Source of the DNA: Bacteroidetes bacterium MED-G13
GTDB lineage: Bacteria > Bacteroidota > Bacteroidia > Flavobacteriales > Flavobacteriaceae
Direction of reading: 5' to 3'
DNA: 39,471 nucleotides
Assembly: GCA_002457735.1 (NCBI GenBank)
Contig: NTKO01000010.1
Coordinates: forward strand, 1-39,471
This document shows, piece by piece, positions 1 to 37,040 of the stretch. The position numbers were made by a program, and so were the translations under genes. How positions within the stretch are numbered: position 1 is the first letter of the stretch; each line of letters opens with the position of its first letter. The notes beneath the pieces were generated by a model. It was not told the origin of the DNA. It saw only the letters and a program-made list of their open reading frames with translations, and did no database searches.

Positions 1-808
1 ACTGATTTTTCATTGGAATTACTAATAGTTTCTTTTTTAAATAAATAGCTTCTGCTGGTGTTTCAAAACCTGCTCCACATATAATTCCCAATGAGCTAGC
101 CATACTGATACTAAAAATCTTACTATTAATTGGTTCTAAAGTAAGATTTTTATGTAACACTCTCTCATTGACTTCTTTGGAAAATATGTGAAAATTAAAA
201 TTATTTAATTTTGTAAATATTTTTTTCAATTTTTTTACTGAATATGCTGGCAAATATATTGCGTAGTGATCTTTAATTTTTGGTTTTAGTCTCCTTACAT
301 TTTTACTAATTATAGGAAAAAAAATATTCTTATCGTACTCTGTAAAATGAAATCCAAACCCTTCTTTAACAGGAGCGTAAAATTTTAGTATTAATTTATG
401 TATAAACGAAAGTTTTTTTATCATGGGTACATTTTCATTTAAAAGAGCATATTGATGACTTAAAGCAAATGCTTTTTTATTTTGTAGTTTTGCTGTCCAT
501 GCAGAAATTGGCTCAAAGTCTGTAAGTATCAAATCATAATCATCTAGCTTTAAATTCCAAATGTCAATAAATAGGCGAATAAAATTCACTTTTCTAATTG
601 TGTGAAAAAAACTTATTCCCCCTCTTTTGCCAAAAACAAAACTTAACCCCTTAAATTTATATTTTACATTGAAATTTAGCTTCAAAGACGACTCTGTTCC
701 ACTTACTAAAACATCTACTCTAGCATGTTTTTTAAATATCGGTACAAGTTCATTTGCTCTAGTTATGTGACCATTTCCTGTTGCTTGAAGTGCATATAAT
801 ATTTTCAT
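1..808 (-). CDS. Glycosyltransferase, GT28-like (MJ1255/VC2487 family), partial
   Basis: The reading frame is open from an ATG at 808 to the left edge, giving about 269 residues with the C-terminus missing. The N-terminus MKILYALQATGNGHITRA has the glycine-rich GNGH loop of MurG/GT28-like GT-B glycosyltransferases, and the overall pattern (ILTDFEP, the later GFETPAEA segment) resembles the MJ1255/VC2487 group. GFETPAEA sits where such enzymes bind the nucleotide-sugar donor. The likely role is transfer of a sugar to a lipid or envelope acceptor at the inner face of the cytoplasmic membrane; the acceptor cannot be read from sequence. The ATG overlaps the stop of the upstream metallophosphoesterase as ATGA, so the two are probably translationally coupled and functionally paired. 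The family call is fairly confident, the substrate is not. Confidence 0.75.
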   Translation of the reverse strand, partial: MKILYALQATGNGHITRANELVPIFKKHARVDVLVSGTESSLKLNFNVKYKFKGLSFVFGKRGGISFFHTIRKVNFIRLFIDIWNLKLDDYDLILTDFEPISAWTAKLQNKKAFALSHQYALLNENVPMIKKLSFIHKLILKFYAPVKEGFGFHFTEYDKNIFFPIISKNVRRLKPKIKDHYAIYLPAYSVKKLKKIFTKLNNFNFHIFSKEVNERVLHKNLTLEPINSKIFSISMASSLGIICGAGFETPAEAIYLKKKLLVIPMKNQ

Positions 809-1626
809 TTTGTGAGTATATTATAATCATCTAACATTTCATTGAATATTTTATCAATGGGTTTAAAGCTTTCATCAATTTTAAAGTCACTATAATTAAA
901 TTTATATATTTCCCAATTTCCCTTATTATATTCCAGAGATGTTAAGTTCTCTACCCAGTCTCCTGAATTTAAATATTCAATATTTTTATTTTTTAATTTA
1001 AAAGTTTTGATACATGGTTCATGGATATGTCCACAAACTACCGACGTAAAACCATGATTTTCTGCAATTTCTACAATCGTATTTTCAAATTGGTTGATAT
1101 ATTTAACTGCTAGTTTAATATTTTTTTTGATTTTTTTTGAAAAAGAGGTTTTTTCTTTTTTGAAGAAAAAATAGATTTTATTAATTATAAAATTTAGTAA
1201 TATTAGTAAATCATATCCGTAAGAACCAAGTCTAGTTAACCATTTTGAATGCTGCATGGTTATATCAAATACATCTCCATGAAAAAACCATGTTTTTTCC
1301 CCATTAAGATTCAAAATTAATTTATTTGATATTTTGAAATTTGATATTTTGAAACCTTTGAATCTTCTTAACTCTTCATCGTGATTTCCTGTGATATAAT
1401 GTACAGTTACGCCATTATTTATTAATTTAAGAATTAGACGAATTAATTTGGTATGATATATATCCCAGTGCCTTTTTTTAAATTGCCACATATCAATAAA
1501 ATCACCATTCATTACAAGCATTCTGGGCTTAATGCTTTTTAAATAGAAGTATAGTTCTTTTGCTTTAGAACCAATAGAACCTAGGTGTACATCAGATATT
1601 ACAACAATATCAACAGATCTTTTCAC
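805..1626 (-). CDS. Calcineurin-like metallophosphoesterase, LpxH/PlcP type
   Basis: The 273-residue protein has the two-metal phosphoesterase motifs in order: DVHLGS (near residue 12), NGDFID (near 41), GNHDEE (near 80), HGDVFD (near 115) and GHIHEP (near 199). Annotation pipelines usually call this family UDP-2,3-diacylglucosamine diphosphatase. The features between motifs (HGDxFD followed by HSKWL, LGSYGYD, a lysine-rich stretch, NQFENT, and GDWVENLT near the end) also match, as I recall them, PlcP-type phospholipases C used by bacteria to strip head groups from phospholipids under phosphate limitation. Start is GTG at 1626; no better ATG exists. It lies 77 bp after the phytase gene and overlaps the glycosyltransferase start, which favours an envelope-lipid role. 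LpxH-type lipid A synthesis remains the main alternative. Confidence 0.8.
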   Translation of the reverse strand: MKRSVDIVVISDVHLGSIGSKAKELYFYLKSIKPRMLVMNGDFIDMWQFKKRHWDIYHTKLIRLILKLINNGVTVHYITGNHDEELRRFKGFKISNFKISNKLILNLNGEKTWFFHGDVFDITMQHSKWLTRLGSYGYDLLILLNFIINKIYFFFKKEKTSFSKKIKKNIKLAVKYINQFENTIVEIAENHGFTSVVCGHIHEPCIKTFKLKNKNIEYLNSGDWVENLTSLEYNKGNWEIYKFNYSDFKIDESFKPIDKIFNEMLDDYNILTK

Positions 1627-1703
1627 TGATGTAAAGGTAAACCCTAATTATTAGTAAGGTGTTAAATGATTTTTACTTAATAGTTATAAATTTATGAGAA
1701 ATG

Positions 1704-2732
1704 TTAATTAATTTTTAACCAATCAATCAATTTAAAGTTTTGGAATCCATCATCATTGAATCCATCTTGAACAACTAAAAATCCTTTTTTATACTTTCTA
1801 GTTGACATTGATGTAACCTCAATTCCATCTGTATCACTAGTACCGTCAATACCATTTCCATCAATTACTTTCACAAATTTTTTAAGCTTATGGTTTTTTC
1901 TGTCCAATACTGCATATCCATTACTTCCTTGAACAGAAATAATAATGCTTCCATTTTCCTCATCAGACTTGTATAATGCTAAACCTTCAAAATCATTTTT
2001 AAAAATTTTATTTACCCCAAAAATTAAACGTCTATTTTCGGCAATATTTGGATCTGCATTTATTTGCCATAAACCTTTATTTTCTTCAGCTATATAAATT
2101 TTTCCATAGTATTCATCAGCAACTAATCCTTCAATTAATGTTCTGAATTTTATGGTTCTAATTTTTTTGATGGATATTGAATTTTGAGAATCATCAACAA
2201 TCCATTGTTCAACATTACCAGATTCTTTATCACTTACAAAAATATAATTTGAATTGTCTCCTTGATAAAAGGTAATTCCATAGACATCTTTCAAAGAAGA
2301 TTTATTATTTGAATTGAGAATTATTTCTAGTGAGTTGTCTTTTGGATTAAGTTTATATAACTCAATTGAATTAGTGGATCTATTTGATCCACAAATGAGA
2401 GGAAAAACATCGCCTTTGAAAGAAAATTTGTTGATTATATCAACATTATTTACTCTGCCAAAGGGATAGTGATTTATTATTTGACCATCAAGATTATAAA
2501 CAACCAAACCATACTTCTTGTCTGTACCAATTATTACAGAACTTTCTGGAGAATCTATATTTTCATAAATACAAATATCATCAGCAGCATCATCATTACT
2601 AATAACAGGGGATGTTTCTAAATCAGCAACTACTTCTTTAACAACAAAAGAGCCAACAAAATTTGTTGGCTCTTGTGCGTACAATAAAGTATTGCTGATA
2701 ATTAAAATTATGAGCGATACATTTTTATTCAT
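1704..2732 (-). CDS. Beta-propeller 3-phytase, secreted
   Basis: This 342-residue protein begins with a signal peptide (about residues 1-19, ending YAQ). It then shows the hallmarks of Bacillus-type calcium-dependent beta-propeller phytases: DDAADD (47-52), GTDKKYGLVVYNLDG (69-83), a GRVNNVD segment (about 92-98), NDFEGLALY (246-254), SVQGSNGYAVLDR (266-278), GIDGTSDTDGIEVTS (294-308) and VVQDGFN (320-326). The acidic residues in these motifs line the calcium and phosphate sites in the family. It would hydrolyse inositol hexakisphosphate in the periplasm or outside the cell, releasing phosphate and lower inositol phosphates. The gene starts 3 bp after the stop of the TonB receptor gene, so the two are almost certainly cotranscribed. 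Length is normal for a single-domain enzyme, with no sorting domain. Confidence 0.93.
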   Translation of the reverse strand: MNKNVSLIILIISNTLLYAQEPTNFVGSFVVKEVVADLETSPVISNDDAADDICIYENIDSPESSVIIGTDKKYGLVVYNLDGQIINHYPFGRVNNVDIINKFSFKGDVFPLICGSNRSTNSIELYKLNPKDNSLEIILNSNNKSSLKDVYGITFYQGDNSNYIFVSDKESGNVEQWIVDDSQNSISIKKIRTIKFRTLIEGLVADEYYGKIYIAEENKGLWQINADPNIAENRRLIFGVNKIFKNDFEGLALYKSDEENGSIIISVQGSNGYAVLDRKNHKLKKFVKVIDGNGIDGTSDTDGIEVTSMSTRKYKKGFLVVQDGFNDDGFQNFKLIDWLKIN

Positions 2733-2735
2733 GGT

Positions 2736-5462
2736 TTAGAAATCATATTTTAACCCAACATTCCAGTTGTAGCTATAATATTCAAGCTGCATTGTTCTTT
2801 CTTTTACACCCTGATAATATCTAAGCGGCTGATTTGTTAAATTTTTTGCTTCAGCAAATATACTAAGTTTATCAGAAAGTCTATACGTAGCATTTAAATC
2901 AACAAAAAGTTGTTCGTCATAGTATCGATCTTCCCATGAATCACCTCCAATTTCATCTAAAGCCTCACCAGCATAATTCATAGAAGCTCTCACAAAAAAC
3001 TTCTTACTTTCATAAGCTAAAGATGCGTTATACATATTTTCAATTGCACCAGCAAGTGGAACATCATCTCTACCCTCAATTCCATCAGTATTTGAGTCTG
3101 TAAAAGTATAATTAGCCATTAAAGTAAAGTTATCAAGTAATCTAGTTTGTAATCCAAATTCAAAACCGGTTACACTAGCTTTTGATCCATTTCTTACTTG
3201 TTCATATTCATAATCAGGAGTACCATTATAAACATAATTTTCTGTTGTAAATGTGTACAACCAATTATCAATATTTTTATAAAATGCTCCAAAAGAAATT
3301 AACGCTGTTCCACCAAAATAGTAATCAAGCATTAGGTCAAGGTTGTTTGAAAGAGATGCTTCTAAATCAGGGTTACCTACCGCAATCTCTTCATCACTAG
3401 AAACAACTGCTTGATAAGGGACCAAGTCATAATAATTTGGTCTCGCAATACTATTACTATAACCTAAATTAGCAACGAATTTATCACTGAATTCATGTTG
3501 CACGTTTAAGCTAGGAAGAATATTTGAATATGAGTTTGATCCAGAAATACTTTCGATATCATCAACTGAATCATAATCACCATCCTCATCATAAACTCTT
3601 CCTGTATAGTCTATGTCTGTGTGCTCAAACCTAGCACCTACAACAACAGTTGTCTTGTCTCCTAATTTGTCAGTAACCATTGCGTATGCTGCAGCAACTT
3701 TTTCATCAGCACTGTAAATCTCCCCAGCAAATTCCTCAAATAATATTTCACTTCCATCACCAGAATAAAAGTTTTGGGCTCCTAGCCATTCTGCAGTTGC
3801 AAAATTTCCTAACATATATTGATCACCTGGTTCATACCCATCGATTGAAGCATTAAAGTAATCAGCATCAGCCATGGTATCAAATGGGAAACCATCTTCA
3901 AAACCTTCCCAGAAATCATTTCTCATTTTTTCTTTTACCTTATACTTAGCACCAAACTTTAATTTGTCATCTCCATCATTGTAAGGTAACTCAAAGTTTA
4001 TTTTAGCACTTGAATTTTCTTCCTCAGTGTATTTTTGTGCTTGCTCAAAATGTCTGAATCCATATTCAGCAGGATCATTCCAGCTATCTCCTTCAAAATT
4101 AAATACAGGATATTCAGGATCAGATAAGTCAATAGAACTTAAATCAGCACTACTATTTTGAAACCTTACATATCTTTCATTTGGTCTTTCTTCACTAGCC
4201 TTTGAAGTACCAACTTTCCAATCCATAGTTACTTTTCCAAACAGGTGCTCACCACCAAATGAAATTTTCCTTACTCTTTGGTCTTCTAGTCTTCTGTTGT
4301 CATTGATATCATCACCAATACCACCTTTTGTTTGTTTTCTAACTCTCACACCTTCAGATGGATCAGCTTCCCAATCATCGATATTACCGATTCTTAGTCT
4401 AAATCTATTTTCCCAATCATCCCTGTGATTATAAATTGTTTTTACAAATAAAGAATTATTGTCATCGATTTCATAGTCAAGGTTTAATCCAATACTTCTT
4501 CTTGTCCTTTTAACATCATATCTTCTAATATCATGCTCACCAATCGCCCCATCTTCCGCCCAATCTTCTGGATCATTCCACTCAAATTCAATATTATCAG
4601 ATCCATAATTTCTTGTTTGTAAAGTTGAGCTTAAAGAATAGCTTAACTTATCATTTATTTTATCTGCTACAACTAATGCGATATTTGCATTGGATCCATC
4701 AGATCTTATGGGTTCTGCACCGGCAGAAAGGGTAGCCGAAGCTCTAAAACCACTAGGATTGGATCTTGTAACAAGATTAACTGATCCTCCAATTGCATCA
4801 GCTTCCATATCAGGAGTCATGGATTTATTAACTTCTATTGTTTGAATCATCGCAGAGGGAATTAAGTCAAGTTGAACATTTCTATTATCCCCTTCCGCAG
4901 AAGGAATTCTATCTCCATTAAGAGTGACAGAGTTCAATCCTGAAGCAAAACCTCTTATCACGATATTTCTTGCTTCTCCTTGATCTCCTTGCATGGAAAC
5001 CCCAGCAACTCTTTTCAATACATCACCAACATTATCATCAGGATATTTTCCAACTTGATCAGATGAAATAACGTTCGTAACATTTAAATCAGATTTTTGT
5101 TGGTTCAATGCCTTAACAATTCCACTAGAATAGCCGGAGACAACAATTTCAGCAAGTTCCGTAGCAGATGGCTCAAGAGTAAAATCTTGGGTAGTAGTTG
5201 CATTTTCTGCAATTTCTACAGAGGCAGTGACTCCTTCAAAACCGATATAGGAAACACTAATTTCGGAATTTCCAGATTCTAGATCGATGAATCTGTAAAA
5301 ACCATTAAAATCTGAAACAGTTCCCTTGTCATTGTCAACAATTATTGTTGCACCCGGTAAAGGAAAACCATTAGAATCAAGAACTCTTCCCTTCAAATTG
5401 GATTGGGAAAAAGTAAAACTTACACAAAATAGTGCAAATAATAAGAAGTAAAATTTTTTCAT
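2736..5462 (-). CDS. TonB-dependent outer-membrane receptor paired with phytase
   Basis: The 908-residue protein has a signal peptide (about 1-19, ending TFS-Q), a carboxypeptidase-D-like beta-sandwich (about 22-108, GRVLDSNGFPLPGATI), a plug domain (about 120-235, including GDVLKRVAGVSMQGDQGEA and LNGDRIPSAEGDNRNVQL) and a 22-strand-type barrel ending in YDF, the usual terminal aromatic residue. The plug resembles the TonB-Xanth-Caul (TIGR01782) type. It would import a scarce substrate across the outer membrane using proton-motive force. Its tight linkage to the phytase suggests inositol phosphates or the products of phytate hydrolysis as cargo; that is inference. No SusD-like gene is next to it. 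A Pho-box-like promoter lies upstream (see 5499-5532). Confidence 0.92.
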   Translation of the reverse strand: MKKFYFLLFALFCVSFTFSQSNLKGRVLDSNGFPLPGATIIVDNDKGTVSDFNGFYRFIDLESGNSEISVSYIGFEGVTASVEIAENATTTQDFTLEPSATELAEIVVSGYSSGIVKALNQQKSDLNVTNVISSDQVGKYPDDNVGDVLKRVAGVSMQGDQGEARNIVIRGFASGLNSVTLNGDRIPSAEGDNRNVQLDLIPSAMIQTIEVNKSMTPDMEADAIGGSVNLVTRSNPSGFRASATLSAGAEPIRSDGSNANIALVVADKINDKLSYSLSSTLQTRNYGSDNIEFEWNDPEDWAEDGAIGEHDIRRYDVKRTRRSIGLNLDYEIDDNNSLFVKTIYNHRDDWENRFRLRIGNIDDWEADPSEGVRVRKQTKGGIGDDINDNRRLEDQRVRKISFGGEHLFGKVTMDWKVGTSKASEERPNERYVRFQNSSADLSSIDLSDPEYPVFNFEGDSWNDPAEYGFRHFEQAQKYTEEENSSAKINFELPYNDGDDKLKFGAKYKVKEKMRNDFWEGFEDGFPFDTMADADYFNASIDGYEPGDQYMLGNFATAEWLGAQNFYSGDGSEILFEEFAGEIYSADEKVAAAYAMVTDKLGDKTTVVVGARFEHTDIDYTGRVYDEDGDYDSVDDIESISGSNSYSNILPSLNVQHEFSDKFVANLGYSNSIARPNYYDLVPYQAVVSSDEEIAVGNPDLEASLSNNLDLMLDYYFGGTALISFGAFYKNIDNWLYTFTTENYVYNGTPDYEYEQVRNGSKASVTGFEFGLQTRLLDNFTLMANYTFTDSNTDGIEGRDDVPLAGAIENMYNASLAYESKKFFVRASMNYAGEALDEIGGDSWEDRYYDEQLFVDLNATYRLSDKLSIFAEAKNLTNQPLRYYQGVKERTMQLEYYSYNWNVGLKYDF

Positions 5463-5498
5463 GTTTTGTAATTTAATTTTATGAAATCAAAATAAAAA

Positions 5499-5532
5499 CA
5501 ATATTATGAATGAAATGTTAACTGAATGTTAT
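5499..5532 (-). promoter_or_regulatory. Pho-box-like direct repeat plus -7 element for the phytase-linked receptor
   Basis: Read on the minus strand, 5532-5516 is ATAACA-N5-TTAACA, two hexamers with an 11-bp period. Nine bp later, 5506-5499 reads TAATATTG, one mismatch from the Bacteroidota -7 consensus TAnnTTTG. A transcript would start near 5495, giving a leader of about 33 nt. The repeat resembles the B. subtilis PhoP-type box (TTAACA-like hexamers about 5 bp apart) and sits where an activator would replace the -33 contact. Regulator identity is inference. Confidence 0.5.
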
Positions 5533-5553
5533 TAATAATTTATATTAATAACT

Positions 5554-8361
5554 TTAGAATTTTACGGAATATCCAATTGAAATCTCTGTTCCAATTTCTC
5601 TGTAGGAAAATATCTGATCACTAATTCCAAAGGATTCGTACACACTTTCCTTTTTATTATTTAGGAGGTTTTTAGCTTTTACAGAAATCGAGGATTTACC
5701 ATTTTTGTCTAGAAATTTTTTGAGAGTAAAATTTAAGCTATGAAATGGAGAAGTATACACATCAGGAACATAACCAGTTCCAACAACTTCTAATGTAGGT
5801 CCTTGTACATTATAGTAAAATCCATATTGAAACCCAGTACTTTCATTTAAGTATTCTAGGTTTGAATTTATCAAATAGGGGGATTGCCCTTGTAAATCTC
5901 TTTTGTTCGAAATACTTTCTCCAACTCTTGCAGAGTTAGATCTTAATAAAAATTCATCATCTGACATTTCTAGAGAAGAGCTAATGTAAGAAGCATTCAA
6001 TGCAAACCTCCATTTTCTAATGTCATCTGAAATAAAATTTATTGGTTTTCTAATTTCAAATTCTGCTCCAAAAACTTCTGCTGAACCAAGATTTTTAGAG
6101 GTGAGTTGTTGAGGTGCTTGAGCAAAAAATGTTAATTCAATAGGGTCTTTAAAACTTTTATAAAACCCACTGATAGCTACAATATCACCCTTATTTCCAA
6201 ATATCTCATATCTTATATCAGCATTGTTAATATATGAAGGTTTTAGATCTATATTTCCAATATAAAGCCTATCAGTAATAGCATCATAAATTTGAGCCTT
6301 TGAGGCTTCTTTAAATGATGGTCTTGCTGTAGTTAATGAGTAGGAAGTTCTAAAATTTGAATTTTCATTGATTTTATAAATCAAGTTTAAGGATGGATAG
6401 AAATCTAGTTTAGAAATAATTTTTGAATTATTAAAAACAGCGGTTCCGCTTTGGTTTTGTCCAGTGTAGTAAGATTCAAATTGTTCTGCCCTAATTCCTA
6501 TAATTGTTTTAAAACTTTTAAACAAGTCGAATTCGTTTGCTAAATAAGCGGCAAAAATTGTTTGTTCTCCTTCATAAGAGTTGGAGGGTTGATATATATT
6601 GTTAGAATCTAAGAATGTTCCTTGACCTGAATCAACTGTCCAAATATTTTGCGCTGCTAAAATATTATTTGCATTACCATCAACCACATTATTAGGATTG
6701 GCTTTAAAGAAATAGGAGTCAACTTCAAAATCTCTATTCTTAATTGTAGCACTCAATCCAAATTTTAGTTTTGCAGGATTTTCTTTAATTGTATATTTTT
6801 TTAAAACATTCAATTGATTGGAAAAGTTAATTTCCTTTAACTCTCTCCAAGTTCTTGTAGGGTATCCAAATGAGCTTGGTTGAATTGAATAATTTCCTTC
6901 ATCATTTATGTATAATGCTGTATTTTTATGATCCTTATCAAACACATTAGATAAAGAAGGAGAAACTTTCCACTCTAATTTCCAATCATTTTCAAAACTA
7001 TGTGTTCCATTCAGTAGAAAATTAGTTACGGACCTTTGCGTATATAAAACGACATCCTTTGTAGCTTGTTCGATTCCACCACCGCCTGTTCCTTGAGAAG
7101 CTTGTTGATTGAAAAAAGCTCCAGTATTTTCTCCATTTTGTATATGAAGCATATTAAATTTATATTTTGACCTTTCTCTTTTATACACTAGCCCAGCTAA
7201 TGCATTCAGTATGACGTTATTAGATCCCTGATCTCCTACGCTAAGTCTATCAGTAACTAAATTTAAAACACTGTTATCATTGGAATCTTTTTTTAATCTG
7301 TTATCAATTCTATTTTTATAAAATGAAGTTTCATTCTTATATGACATTGAGACTTGAAAACCTAGTTTATCATCATTCAAATCAAATTGATTACCAGCAG
7401 TAAACCCAAAGCTAAAGTCATTCATGCTTGTCTTGTTTTTTGCTTTTAATATTGGATCAAATGAGTTTGTGAGCTGGGTAAGGAGGGGGTCATTTGCAAA
7501 AGTACCAGGAATTTGTTGGTATCTATCAATTGGGATATCCCTTGCCCCATTATCAAAACCAAGAAAATCTGTTGATTTTGCTTCGCCAATTAAAAAAGCA
7601 TTATTGAAATGCATTTTTGAATTATATGCACTTCCGATTGAAATTGACAATTCTCTTTTAGTTGGAAAGTCTTTTGTAACTATGTCAATTACACCGCCCG
7701 TAAAATCAGCTGGATACTCAGCCGCTGCACTTTTTATTACAATAATATTTTCAAGAATATTCGTTGGAAATATATCCATTTGTATTGTGTTTCTGTCTGG
7801 GTCCAGACCAGGAATATCAACCCCATTTAAAATGGATTTTGTATATCTATCTCCAAGACCTCGTACATATACATATTTACCACCCTGTACAGAAACACCA
7901 GGGACAGCTTTGACTGCACCAGCAATATTACTTGCCCCAGCCTTTTTGATTCCTTGTGATGAAATACCATCTAGCATTACCGTTGATTTTTTTTGAATAT
8001 CAAGTACAGCAGATTCTGTATTTTTTCTGACGGTAGTTGAAATAACAACCTCATCTAACATATTTGTCAATAAAGTGACATTTACTATTTCATCACTTTC
8101 CTCAGAGATAGTGACATCCGTAATTTCTATGGTTGAATATCCTACAAAAGAAAAAATTAGTGTGTAAGAGCCAGGATCCAAGCTTAGCTCATATTTTCCG
8201 TCAAAGTCTGAAGTGGTGCCAATACTCGAATCTTTTACAATCACATTCGCAAAGGCCATTGGTTCATCATATTCACCATCCATAATCAAACCAGAAACCT
8301 TTCCTTGCGAGATGCTTAGGGATGTAAAAAGTAAAAAAAACAATAAACCAAAATATTTCAT
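5554..8361 (-). CDS. TonB-dependent outer-membrane receptor (second)
   Basis: The 935-residue protein has a signal peptide (about 1-18, ending SIS-Q), a carboxypeptidase-D-like domain (about 21-105), a plug (about 118-235) with VRGLGDRYTKSILNGVDIPG and PADFTGGVIDIVTK, and a C-terminal beta-barrel ending in VKF. The plug differs clearly from that of the neighbouring receptor, so this is not a recent duplicate. The imported ligand cannot be inferred from the protein alone. The gene lies between the lipoprotein gene (88 bp upstream) and the receptor-phytase pair (91 bp downstream), and its own promoter shares architecture with the latter. A shared phosphorus-acquisition role is therefore plausible. 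No SusD homologue accompanies it; the upstream lipoprotein is the likeliest partner. Confidence 0.92.
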   Translation of the reverse strand: MKYFGLLFFLLFTSLSISQGKVSGLIMDGEYDEPMAFANVIVKDSSIGTTSDFDGKYELSLDPGSYTLIFSFVGYSTIEITDVTISEESDEIVNVTLLTNMLDEVVISTTVRKNTESAVLDIQKKSTVMLDGISSQGIKKAGASNIAGAVKAVPGVSVQGGKYVYVRGLGDRYTKSILNGVDIPGLDPDRNTIQMDIFPTNILENIIVIKSAAAEYPADFTGGVIDIVTKDFPTKRELSISIGSAYNSKMHFNNAFLIGEAKSTDFLGFDNGARDIPIDRYQQIPGTFANDPLLTQLTNSFDPILKAKNKTSMNDFSFGFTAGNQFDLNDDKLGFQVSMSYKNETSFYKNRIDNRLKKDSNDNSVLNLVTDRLSVGDQGSNNVILNALAGLVYKRERSKYKFNMLHIQNGENTGAFFNQQASQGTGGGGIEQATKDVVLYTQRSVTNFLLNGTHSFENDWKLEWKVSPSLSNVFDKDHKNTALYINDEGNYSIQPSSFGYPTRTWRELKEINFSNQLNVLKKYTIKENPAKLKFGLSATIKNRDFEVDSYFFKANPNNVVDGNANNILAAQNIWTVDSGQGTFLDSNNIYQPSNSYEGEQTIFAAYLANEFDLFKSFKTIIGIRAEQFESYYTGQNQSGTAVFNNSKIISKLDFYPSLNLIYKINENSNFRTSYSLTTARPSFKEASKAQIYDAITDRLYIGNIDLKPSYINNADIRYEIFGNKGDIVAISGFYKSFKDPIELTFFAQAPQQLTSKNLGSAEVFGAEFEIRKPINFISDDIRKWRFALNASYISSSLEMSDDEFLLRSNSARVGESISNKRDLQGQSPYLINSNLEYLNESTGFQYGFYYNVQGPTLEVVGTGYVPDVYTSPFHSLNFTLKKFLDKNGKSSISVKAKNLLNNKKESVYESFGISDQIFSYREIGTEISIGYSVKF

Positions 8362-8373
8362 AATAAATTTCTT

Positions 8374-8408
8374 AAAAAAAAATGCCTGTGTAAATTAATA
8401 CACAGGCA
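8374..8408 (-). terminator. Rho-independent terminator of the lipoprotein gene
   Basis: A perfect 10-bp inverted repeat, TGCCTGTGTA (8383-8392) and TACACAGGCA (8399-8408), encloses a 6-nt loop. Read on the minus strand it is followed directly by nine T residues (complement of A 8374-8382). This is a textbook intrinsic terminator placed after the lipoprotein stop at 8450 and just before the receptor start at 8361. Confidence 0.9.
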
Positions 8409-8442
8409 CAAAAATAAATTTGTTTTCTTAAACAAATGTTAA
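8409..8442 (-). promoter_or_regulatory. Pho-box-like repeat plus perfect -7 element for the second receptor
   Basis: On the minus strand, 8442-8426 reads TTAACA-N5-TTAAGA. Nine bp later, 8416-8409 reads TATTTTTG, a perfect TAnnTTTG. The predicted start of transcription is near 8405, inside the first arm of the terminator hairpin, so the new transcript would lack part of the stem. The geometry matches the site at 5499-5532. The -7 element is strong evidence; the identity of the regulator is inference. Confidence 0.55.
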
Positions 8443-8449
8443 CAAATCA

Positions 8450-9679
8450 TTACCATCCAAGTGCAGCAGCAGCATTTGCATAAGTCCATGCAAGAGCTGA
8501 CGTATCACAACCGACTGTTTGTGAAGCTTGAGCTACATCAGATGCTGTTGAACCAAATCCCTCAACAACTACGTTATCTGCTTTATTGTTGAAGATATCT
8601 GCAAGTGAATCACCATCAGGAACGTCTATTTGGATAGCACCAAAAGTTAAGATTCCCTCATTATAATTAGTTGCTACTCCATCGTTATCTAGCTCAATAT
8701 CTTTTCCTACTTGAAAACCCCATGCAGCAAGATTATTTGTTGCACCTTGAGCATTTGATCTGTAGTCAGCATATTCACCATTTTCAGTTACTGAATTTCC
8801 AACAAGTGTAATGTTATTTAATACAAATTGATCCTCAAAAGAACCTTCTGGTCCATCAATTTCCATTCCGTGGTCAGAATTAGCTCCAGCAAGTACAATT
8901 GCGTTGCTTACAGTACCAGAGTATGCTTGATCAATATCAATTAAATCATCACCACAAGCCCAAACAAGAGCATTGGTAACATTAACTGTACCTCCGAAGA
9001 ATTCGATTCCATCATCAGAATTTGCAACTACCTCAATATTTTCAATTACAGTACCGTTTCCAACTCCTCCAAGGGTAATTCCATTGATTTCATTATTCTC
9101 TCCAATTACAGCTCCTCCGTGTCTTACAGAAACATATGTAATTACACCAGAATTGTCAGATGCATCATTACCTCCATAAAGACCAAAAGTATCATCTGCA
9201 GGTATACCCTCAATCTGAGCTTCAACAACATCTCCTTCAAAAGAACATGGAGCATTTCCTAGAACCAATAACCCACCCCAAAGTCCTTGAGTGTCTGGAC
9301 TTGATGGATCTAAGTTGCCATCTAAATTATCAGCTATAGAAGTCATAATAATGGGGGCGTCTGCCGTTCCATTTGCAAAAATTTGACCGTCTCTAGCTAC
9401 AACAAGAGCAGATGCAAGAGAACCAGCACCAGCACTACCTTTGATCACAGTACCGGCTTCAATTGTTAATGTAGCACCAGCATCAACTACCACCTTTTGA
9501 TTTAAAATATAAGTGTTGTTAGATGTCCAAGTATTAGCACCTGATAACATTCCAGTTACGTTAATAGTTTCTGAAACAGGATCAGGATCGACAGGCACAG
9601 GTGCAGGTGCAGGATCGTCATCATCACTACATGCATTAAAGGCAAATAGTGCGAAAGTTAATAATAATAGTTTTTTCAT
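8450..9679 (-). CDS. Surface lipoprotein with parallel beta-helix-like repeats
   Basis: The 409-residue protein starts with a lipoprotein signal peptide ending at Cys17, followed immediately by SDDDD. That acidic run is like the Bacteroidota lipoprotein export signal directing lipoproteins to the outer face of the outer membrane. After a Pro/Asp/Val linker (about 22-40) comes a Gly/Asn/Asp/Val-rich body with repeats such as LTIEAGTVIKGSAG, VVARDGQIFANGTADAPI, GNGTVIENIEVVANSDDGIEFFGGTVNV and NDIDQ-like turns, the pattern of a right-handed parallel beta-helix. No catalytic motif is evident, so enzyme activity is not supported. Its position upstream of two TonB receptors, with no SusD present, makes a substrate-capture role reasonable but unproven. 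A terminator follows it. Confidence 0.8.
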   Translation of the reverse strand: MKKLLLLTFALFAFNACSDDDDPAPAPVPVDPDPVSETINVTGMLSGANTWTSNNTYILNQKVVVDAGATLTIEAGTVIKGSAGAGSLASALVVARDGQIFANGTADAPIIMTSIADNLDGNLDPSSPDTQGLWGGLLVLGNAPCSFEGDVVEAQIEGIPADDTFGLYGGNDASDNSGVITYVSVRHGGAVIGENNEINGITLGGVGNGTVIENIEVVANSDDGIEFFGGTVNVTNALVWACGDDLIDIDQAYSGTVSNAIVLAGANSDHGMEIDGPEGSFEDQFVLNNITLVGNSVTENGEYADYRSNAQGATNNLAAWGFQVGKDIELDNDGVATNYNEGILTFGAIQIDVPDGDSLADIFNNKADNVVVEGFGSTASDVAQASQTVGCDTSALAWTYANAAAALGW

Positions 9680-9753
9680 TATATAGTTTTTAAATTTATG
9701 CTACAAAGAAATAATTATTACTTTATTTTTATTTCAACCGAGCTTTAATATAT

Positions 9754-9790
9754 TGTTACCTTACAGTTAAGAAAATAAACTAAATGTTAA
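9754..9790 (-). promoter_or_regulatory. Four TTAACA-like half-sites upstream of the lipoprotein gene
   Basis: Read on the minus strand, 9790-9774 is TTAACA-N5-TTTATT and 9770-9754 is TTAACT-N5-GTAACA. Each pair has an 11-bp period, and the pairs are separated by 3 bp. The cluster ends 74 bp before the ATG at 9679. I do not see a good TAnnTTTG element at the spacing used by the two receptor promoters, so this may be an operator whose core promoter diverges from consensus. Confidence 0.35.
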
Positions 9791-9891
9791 TCAATTATTT
9801 ACTTACAAATATTTTACTTAATATTTAGATAACCTTAAACTCGTTAATTAAAAAAAAATTAAAGTAAGTTTATGTAATTAACTCAAATCCA

Positions 9892-34942: not shown

Positions 34943-36589
34943 CTAGCTAATAAGATTTTGATTTGCTAGGATTTTTTTTGTCATGTATGCATAAATCACA
35001 AGAAATACAAAGCAAATAACAGCTACCCAATAGGATGTTATTATTCCAAAAATATCCGCAAGTTTACCTTGAAGAGGAGGTATTATAGCTCCACCTAAAA
35101 TCATCATAACTAAAAAAGAAGAGCCTTGTGAAGTATATTTTCCGAGACCTGTAATACTAAGAGAGAAGATGCAGGGCCACATGATTGAACAAAATAAACC
35201 TCCAGTTAGAAAAGCAAACAAAGCAATTTGTCCTGAACCAAATATTCCTATTAACATGGCTATTACGCCCAAGAAACTAAAAATCCCCATCATTTTAAGG
35301 GCGTTATCTTTTGCATAATAAAACCCAATAATTTGAATAACAATTAACATAGAAAAAATTCCAATTTCAGAAATTGTTAGGGGATTACTAAACGAATTTA
35401 CCGCTATTACAACACCAAAAGCAATAAAAGGGGTTAAGATTAATAATATCTTTTTTAAAGATTTTGATATATCAAATGCTCCGATTGACCCTGTCCATCT
35501 TCCAATCATAAGCCCTCCCCAATATAGTGCAATATATTTTGCGCTTTGTGCTTCGTCAAGAACAGGAAGACCGATGGCGTTTAGGCCTTTACCAATATCT
35601 GCTTTAAGTAATTCTCCCAAATTACTTTGGATTGTTACCTCCACCCCTACATAGGTGAAAATTGCTAACATACCCCATGCAAGTTGAGGATATTTTAAGG
35701 CTCCCCATCCATCAGAATTTTTGGTAGCTGAAAAATATGCTCTGAAAATTAATACAAATACAGAGAGAAGACAGATTATAGTTAGTAGAAGTCTTATTAT
35801 TTCTAATTCTTCAACAGAGCTATGCTCAAAAGCAGGAGTGTATGAGTAAAAAATCCAGCCAAAACACAGAACCATAATAATAGTCATTAAAATAAGCATA
35901 GTTTTGGCCTTGTTAGCAGCCTCAAATGCTTCATTATTTTTTGCATCAGGAAGATTTTTTGAAACATAAAAAAATATTGCTACTAACGCAAAAGCAACGG
36001 CTACTGCTATATATAATCCTTGAACTGAGCTTAATTTAATAATATCCCAATTAACTTCAGAAGCAGACCCAAACAGAACAACAGCGATTAGAATTGGACC
36101 AATGGCAGTGCCAAAAGAATTGACTCCACCAGCCAAATTTAGTCTGTTTGACCCAGTCGAAGCGTCGCCAAGTGACACCGCAAATGGGTTTGCAGCAGTT
36201 TGTTGTAGTGAGAATCCTAATCCAATGATGAATAATGCAACAAGAACATAATAGAAAACTTCAGTATCTCCTTGCTGAGCGCCGTTAACAGAAGGAAACA
36301 TTATCACAGCACCTAGGATGGAAATTATCAAACCATAAATTATTCCTTTTTTATATCCCCAATTATTTAAAATATCTTTTTTAGAATAGCTTGACCAGAT
36401 AAATAACACTAATGCACCTACAAAATAAGCTCCATAAAATGCAAATTCGACAAGTTGAGCTTGAAATTGATCTATCTGAAAATAGGTTTTACAGAATGGA
36501 ATAAAAACACCATTTGAGGCCCCAAAAAAACCCCAAAAGAAAAATACTGTTATCAGTGTAAATAATGCTGGATTATTTTGATTTTTCAT
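34943..36589 (-). CDS. FHS-type sugar MFS transporter
   Basis: The 548-residue inner-membrane protein has about 12-14 hydrophobic helices. The start ([31 protein letters not shown], about 10-40) and later segments such as [18 protein letters not shown] (about 123-140), [17 protein letters not shown] and the C-half [16 protein letters not shown] belong to the FucP/glucose-galactose (FHS) transporter family, which imports sugars with protons. It is about 100 residues longer than FucP, with extra helices around 230-330. The sugar cannot be inferred, and no sugar-catabolic gene adjoins it. Start is ATG at 36589, divergent from the thioredoxin-like gene. Confidence 0.85.
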
Positions 36590-36691: not shown

Positions 36692-36724
36692 TTAACATTG
36701 TTTTAACAGAAAATTTTATCTTTG
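36692..36724 (+). promoter_or_regulatory. TTAACA-N5-TTAACA repeat plus -7 element for the thioredoxin-like gene
   Basis: A perfect direct repeat TTAACA (36692-36697) and TTAACA (36703-36708) is followed 8 bp later by TATCTTTG (36717-36724), a perfect TAnnTTTG. Transcription would begin near 36728, with a leader of about 16 nt to the ATG at 36744. The layout matches the promoters at 5499-5532 and 8409-8442. The -7 element is well supported; the shared-regulator idea is inference. Confidence 0.55.
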
Positions 36725-36743: not shown

Positions 36744-37040
36744 ATGGCCAGATTTGGAGACTTGATTAATGTAGAGGTTCCGGTTCTATTAGAATTTTTT
36801 AACGAATGGGATGAAACTTCCAAAATTATGCATCCTATTGTTAAAGACGTTGCTGCTGCGTTAGGAGATAAGGCTAAAATCATTAAAATTGATGTTGAAA
36901 AAAATAACGAACTAGCTGATGCTTTGCGAATTAAAGGTGTTCCTACTTTTATAATATATAAAAGTGGAGAGATGAAATGGCGTCAAAGTGGTGAAGAAAA
37001 TACAAATAACCTTATAAATAGAGTTAAAAAATTTCTTTAA
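36744..37040 (+). CDS. Thioredoxin-fold protein lacking the CxxC motif
   Basis: The 98-residue protein covers a complete thioredoxin domain. VPVLLEFFNEW (11-21) corresponds to the strand before the active site, but WCGPCK is replaced by WDETSK (residues 21-26), so it has no redox cysteines. The cis-proline loop KGVPTFIIYKSGE and the C-terminal helix are intact. Canonical disulfide exchange is therefore not possible; a chaperone, scaffold or binding role is more likely. The gene has its own promoter with a TTAACA repeat. Its stop directly abuts the stop of the convergent DUF2723 gene. Confidence 0.9.
   Translation: MARFGDLINVEVPVLLEFFNEWDETSKIMHPIVKDVAAALGDKAKIIKIDVEKNNELADALRIKGVPTFIIYKSGEMKWRQSGEENTNNLINRVKKFL

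Follow-up and report, generated by a model that had tools for sequence, protein, structure and literature searches.

A probable exchangeable phosphorus cassette with phytase, TonB-dependent receptors and a PlcP-like phosphoesterase in a small-genome flavobacterial genus

Phosphate depletion of Flavobacterium johnsoniae induces a phytase paired with a TonB-dependent transporter (TBDT; Fjoh_1367/1368), the TBDT–lipoprotein pairs PUSIII and PUSIV (PUS, phosphate utilisation system), PlcP (Fjoh_4577) and a glycosyltransferase (Fjoh_0541); all but a few of its PHO regulon modules are strongly induced in this way (PMC8115612). In PUSIV a glycosyltransferase is grouped with a TBDT–lipoprotein pair and phoBR, and the low-phosphate lipoproteins FI–FIII, which adjoin TBDTs, have weak homology to pectate lyases (PMC8115612). 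Here we describe a block of six genes with modules of the same types on contig NTKO01000010.1 of Bacteroidetes bacterium MED-G13. The window analysed spans contig C2 (39,471 bases) completely; the genome (G000) has 1.06 Mb and is 82% complete. In order of transcription, the block consists of genes for a lipoprotein (9679–8450), a receptor paired with it (TBDT2; 8361–5554), a second receptor (TBDT1; 5462–2736), the phytase with which TBDT1 is paired (2732–1704), a metallophosphoesterase (PE; 1626–805) and a glycosyltransferase (GT; 808–2). The six genes in one orientation of a preliminary description of this locus were all recovered in place, on the minus strand.

Three further systems are close to this block. 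Lipid-remodelling operons of plcP and agt are known in SAR11, Phaeobacter/Erythrobacter and Pseudomonas (PMC4796936, PMC8231724, PMC8528852), and plcP is also known in flavobacteria (PMC4796936). A phytase adjoining a TonB-dependent transporter has been described, for example in Citromicrobium (PMC3400609). In HIMB59, phosphate-related flexible genomic islands (fGIp) are found at the same position around a phosphate transporter in simple and rich versions discordant with the species phylogeny, the rich versions including a glycosyltransferase and 'LpxH' (PMC10734472).

The MED-G13 block is like the F. johnsoniae PHO regulon in having a phytase–TBDT pair, a TBDT with a lipoprotein of predicted pectate-lyase fold, PlcP and a glycosyltransferase, matched by module type and not by gene-by-gene orthology. 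Whereas the phytase pair, PlcP and PUS lie at separate loci in F. johnsoniae, the genus studied here has the phytase pair, the lipoprotein pair, PE–GT and a phosphate transporter of the PiT family in one block. As in the proteobacterial plcP–agt operons, a PlcP-clade metallophosphoesterase gene stands immediately 5' of the gene for a GT-B glycosyltransferase; unlike in those operons, the glycosyltransferase is of the MJ1255/PF13528 family with no detectable similarity to Agt, and the pair sits inside a putative phytate uptake cluster. The same-site simple and rich versions around a phosphate transporter recall the HIMB59 islands, but those belong to Alphaproteobacteria and have a PstSCAB core, whereas the flavobacterial cassette has a PiT core, TonB receptors, a phytase and a porin O/P alternative. 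The Citromicrobium pair occurs alone, whereas the window block adds the lipoprotein, PE–GT and PiT. In a literature search for which most subscription papers were out of reach, neither a phytase–receptor block fused to a PlcP–glycosyltransferase pair nor a flavobacterial phosphate cassette exchange was found. The joint arrangement had been presented in the preliminary description as not described as one unit; the joining is only partly new, since the modules are known to be induced by low phosphate and PUSIV already joins a glycosyltransferase to a TBDT–lipoprotein pair (PMC8115612).

Conservation of the block was analysed in 21 congeneric genomes, all of them incomplete metagenome-assembled genomes (MAGs; 56–86%). 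Phytase was found in six (the window genome, G213, G212, G210, G206 and G199, termed carriers below), and the order lipoprotein–TBDT2–TBDT1–phytase–PE–GT is kept in 6/6. The block lies on one contig in G213, G212, G210 and G206 and on two contigs in G199; in the window it runs to the contig end. In all five carriers whose sequence continues, a PiT gene (PF01384, 751 aa) follows on the same strand 3' of GT, past a small opposite-strand gene. PiT was found at a single locus in each of the 16/21 genomes that have it and no PstS-type protein was found in the 21 incomplete genomes, which makes this locus probably the sole point of inorganic-phosphate import in the genus. Divergence between species is uneven within the block, an unusual pattern, with identities of ~90% for TBDT1, 70% for phytase and about 50% for GT.

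At the same site, nine non-carriers have a PiT of 52–54% identity together with a Porin_O_P porin (PF07396) and usually a DUF2490 gene. The site is flanked by ribonucleotide-reductase genes on one side and by TauE–Dgt–TadA on the other. The DNA identity of these flanks between G208 and G213 is 92.7% and 96.4% and breaks off exactly at the stop codon of nrdA and the start codon of TauE; the stretch enclosed measures about 13.1 kb in G213 and 3.5 kb in G208. In the window, the right edge of the exchanged cassette falls at 9680–9891, identity to G208 resuming at the TauE start codon (9892). Carriers and non-carriers are interleaved in a tree of the Dgt+TadA flank, the well-supported branches of which force at least three changes, whereas in the PiT tree the carriers plus G215 are separated from the non-carriers at 100/100; G208 is placed beside the window genome in the flank tree and with the non-carriers in the PiT tree. 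Because the flank and PiT trees conflict, the whole cassette is judged to have been exchanged by recombination in the conserved flanks. Different content of equivalent role thus lies between conserved flanks, and the island tree is discordant with the flank tree, as in replacement-type flexible genomic islands. In G215 (locus L118, contig C34, 66–2592), a truncated Dgt gene of the same orientation comes straight after a truncated PiT gene, which would be either a cassette of a third kind or a chimeric assembly; as both genes are truncated there, the junction was not used as a third version.

We consider that the block probably represents an exchangeable phosphorus cassette in its 'rich' version, placed at the apparently sole inorganic-phosphate uptake locus of this small-genome flavobacterial genus. 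PiT, the cassette exchange and the lack of Pst, the most telling traits of the locus, were out of sight of the preliminary description. The phosphorus-scarcity island proposed previously is borne out to the extent that the block is a conserved unit of the genus, abuts PiT, has Pho-box-like repeats and includes a PlcP-like PE; its linkage fails beyond the genus.

This was seen in a family-level set of 199 genomes, one per genus, in which phytase is present in 41 and PE in 114. Close linkage of the phytase–receptor pair to PE–GT, which had been put forward as a check on the island and holds in 6/6 carriers, was never found in the 40 phytase genomes of other genera; where phytase and PE share a contig they are >190 kb apart. 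Within each pair the partners stay together: a TBDT1-like receptor adjoins phytase in 28/29 family loci, and GT adjoins PE in 26/29 family loci and in 60/77 Bacteroidota loci from named genomes. As the two pairs were never linked outside the genus in the genomes sampled, the block is best read as two old pairs, TBDT1–phytase and PE–GT, joined in this genus. An intermediate arrangement is present in the related genus represented by G149, where PiT–TBDT2–lipoprotein and TBDT1–phytase stand side by side next to Dgt–TadA, with PE–GT elsewhere. In four Chitinophaga loci (L172, L174, L175 and L226), PE lies between PiT–DUF47, from which it is divergent, and a TBDT with a beta-helix-type lipoprotein; we take this to connect PE with phosphate genes independently. 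The Chitinophaga arrangement itself, in another class, looks like an undescribed phosphate locus.

PE (805–1626, minus strand; Metallophos PF00149) is a PlcP-like metallophosphoesterase predicted to be cytoplasmic, no signal peptide having been seen. Its calcineurin-type metal-binding motifs are D12xH14, GD42, GNHD80–83, H116 and GHIH199–202. It matches a PlcP candidate of Sinorhizobium meliloti with 32% identity (E 4e-25). The gene for this match adjoins those for an acyl-homoserine-lactone synthase and a LuxR regulator (sinI/sinR-type neighbours), and from this neighbourhood we take it to be PlcP, the founding phospholipase C of lipid remodelling. In the tree, LpxH is split from PE plus S. 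meliloti PlcP at 97/98, with long branches (LpxH) and a bootstrap that is not fully settled. An LpxH identity was rejected, PE scoring 52/134 and 43/190 bits against the curated NCBIfam LpxH cut-offs and lying outside the LpxH clade; these cut-offs are missed by a flavobacterial LpxH-like gene too (97/134), so the weight is carried by the tree. A separate LpxH-like gene is present in 17/21 congeners, the window genome included. Orthologs of PE (71–100% identity) were found in the six phytase carriers only and in 0/15 others. From the double label 'PlcP/LpxH-like' given previously, the PlcP half is thus retained and the LpxH half dropped, and PE is assigned to the PlcP clade with a predicted phospholipase C role. 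On a Mitsuaria plasmid (L240, 3911–6977), a PlcP-like gene stands directly 5' of the polyphosphate kinase gene ppk1.

GT (2–808, minus strand) belongs to the MJ1255/PF13528 family (E 2.6e-20) and has a predicted GT-B fold. Its 3' end (about 207 bases) is lost at the contig end, leaving 269 of about 338 aa; the full-length ortholog in G213 has 338 aa. The AlphaFold model (pLDDT 89) is closest among solved folds to GT1-type UDP-glycosyltransferases and MurG, and a sequence search for solved relatives gave no significant match. The earlier label 'GT28-like' gives way to MJ1255/Glyco_trans_1_3, the GT28_C match being sub-threshold. Agt (GT4) was also tried and rejected, as BLAST gave no match to the plcP partners of Pseudomonas, Roseomonas and Sphingomonas. 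The overlap of the PE stop codon with the GT start codon noted before is ATGA and is kept in the carriers. Judged by its partner PE, GT would make a glycolipid, and its position beside PE would then fit the pairing of PlcP with genes for phosphorus-free lipids.

The beta-propeller phytase (1704–2732, minus strand; 342 aa) has a signal peptide and matches PF02333 with E 5.8e-72 (243 bits against a cut-off of 21). It was aligned to the Bacillus 3-phytase 3amr over 306 residues (E 1.4e-56), and the motifs DAADD, NNVD, SNRS, EGL, AEE, FEGL, QG and DGTSDTDG, taken as those of the calcium and phosphate sites, are retained. TBDT1 (2736–5462, minus strand) matches TIGR01782 (E 3e-144), and both window receptors carry plug and carboxypeptidase-like domains. 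The 3 bp gap between TBDT1 and phytase in the preliminary description is real and is kept in all carriers. The protein families point to hydrolysis and capture of a substrate by phytase and TBDT1, which would be phytate. Elsewhere, a reading frame of 682 aa in L009 (G075:C11) contains two phytase domains in tandem, and no TonB receptor lies within 1.5 kb of it. In three other genera phytase is followed by a protein of ~275–283 aa, possibly a further phosphatase (L120, 15449–16291; L121, 5988–6839; L122, 15545–16369); a Pfam scan of the L122 copy gave no match.

The surface lipoprotein (8450–9679, minus strand) has a lipobox-type start, MKKLLLLTFALFAFNAC, with Cys17, and is predicted to form a right-handed beta-helix. 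It has no Pfam match and no SusD domain. Its AlphaFold model (pLDDT 79) matched beta-helix enzymes and tailspikes at Z of about 22 on a second look with VIA; Foldseek E-values for the model were not significant, and a sequence search for solved relatives found none. The model fits the description of F. johnsoniae FI–FIII. Its partner TBDT2 (5554–8361, minus strand) has Plug, CarbopepD_reg_2 and barrel domains, and such pairs recur in G149 and Chitinophaga. A SusCD-type phosphate utilisation system (PUS I/II) was rejected for this pair, as the lipoprotein beside the receptor is not SusD-like but a predicted beta-helix; the pair resembles PUSIII/IV. TBDT2 and the lipoprotein may take up a second phosphorus ligand.

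Shared Pho-box-like promoters before both receptors had been suggested. The direct repeat 5' of TBDT1, ATAACATTCAGTTAACAT (5515–5532, minus strand; ATAACAT-CAGT-type spacing), is convincing, with 13/14 matches to TTAACAT-N4-TTAACAT (shuffle p about 0.003). That 5' of TBDT2, TTAACATTTGTTTAAGAA (8425–8442, minus strand), is moderate, with 12/14 matches (p 0.013 for the window; other species have weaker forms). A terminator-type hairpin with a T-run (8382–8409, minus strand; −18 kcal/mol, z −7.0) lies in the lipoprotein–TBDT2 gap, between TBDT2 and its putative box, so that a separate TBDT2 promoter is doubtful; the hairpin suggests attenuated read-through, possibly by an attenuator. G210 has a hairpin of another sequence in this position (z −6.5), and none was found in this gap in G212, G206 and G199.

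Perfect 14/14 repeats with an 11 bp period precede PiT in the carriers and the porin–PiT operon in several non-carriers. With up to three mismatches, 25 TTAACAT repeats were found in the whole window versus 25.2 expected, so only close matches carry weight. PiT and TBDT1 fit the layout of a PhoB regulon (tandem 7 bp repeats, 11 bp period), TBDT2 and the lipoprotein do so weakly and PE not significantly. A sigma-70 scan gave no more matches than in shuffles. Contig C23 of the window genome encodes a PhoB-like regulator, below the curated PhoB cut-off, and an adjoining histidine kinase. Common control of the block by phosphate is predicted, with support from the repeats and from the induction of the F. 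johnsoniae counterparts. A further Pho-box-like repeat in the window, TTAACATTGTTTTAACAG (36692–36709; 13/14), lies between the divergent genes of an MFS transporter (34943–36589, minus strand) and a 98-aa thioredoxin-like protein (36744–37040, plus strand).

Taken as a phosphorus cassette, the block would work as follows. The beta-helix lipoprotein and TBDT2 would capture an organic-phosphorus ligand at the outer membrane, while TBDT1 and the exported phytase would act on phytate or other inositol phosphates, by uptake and dephosphorylation. PiT, encoded next to these genes and supported in its assignment by its sequence, would carry the released phosphate over the inner membrane. In the cytoplasm, PE would cleave phospholipids to diacylglycerol, which GT would convert to a glycolipid, lowering the phosphorus demand of the membrane; these two steps are suggested by PlcP-clade membership and adjacency. 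Regulation of the PhoBR type would act through the TTAACAT-N4-TTAACAT repeats. We give an even chance to the wider proposal that supply (phytate capture and hydrolysis) and demand (PlcP-driven replacement of phospholipids by a glycolipid from the MJ1255-type GT) are swapped together in one recombination event, by which a cell specialised on phosphate would come to scavenge organic phosphorus and to have a membrane low in phosphorus.

Several points weigh against the cassette as described. GT lies outside the proven lipid-remodelling families (Agt, GT4); the repeat 5' of PE lacks significance and that 5' of the lipoprotein is weak; no linkage of PE–GT to phytase is seen in any of the 40 phytase genomes from other genera, so that the linkage may reflect chance capture; and with all congeners incomplete the absence counts (PstS, other phosphatases) are soft. 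The first of these, the box before PE and the lack of linkage outside the genus would also suit a PE–GT pair that makes an envelope glycan or lipid A component (an LpxH-like step plus a sugar transferase) and is a mere neighbour of the phytate locus, and annotation pipelines call PE-type proteins UDP-2,3-diacylglucosamine diphosphatase. We regard this as unlikely: PE misses the LpxH cut-offs, falls in the PlcP clade and coexists in the genus with a separate LpxH-like gene; its absence from all 15 non-carriers means that it is not essential for lipid A; in Chitinophaga it is found beside PiT–DUF47; and F. johnsoniae PlcP is induced by low phosphate (PMC8115612).

The island could also be no regulated phosphate unit but a collection of mutually independent uptake genes of the outer membrane at a site that tolerates integration, as the two receptors of different type, the internal terminator-type hairpin and the widely differing divergence rates given above would allow. 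This is improbable, since both cassette versions hold phosphate genes only (porin O/P, PiT, phytase, PlcP-like) and have the repeat in common, and the block showed no mobile-element genes. That the contrast between carriers and non-carriers is a metagenome binning or assembly artefact is hardly credible: all genomes are MAG-like and incomplete, the G199 block is split and G215 is truncated with a possibly chimeric PiT–Dgt junction, but each arrangement is seen together with intact flanks on its own contigs, in six carriers and nine non-carriers respectively, and the PiT tree has one clade for each PiT type, in agreement with the gene content.

If the proposed functions are true, a single exchangeable cassette would set the phosphorus source and the phosphorus need of the cell together. 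Replacement islands for phosphate, known from alphaproteobacteria, would then occur in flavobacteria too, built around PiT and not Pst. In Bacteroidota at large, the MJ1255-type enzymes that accompany PlcP would be candidates for a family of glycolipid synthases and may account for lipid remodelling in phosphate-starved flavobacteria, and the split between carriers and non-carriers in one genus would provide a natural test against ambient phosphate in metagenomes.

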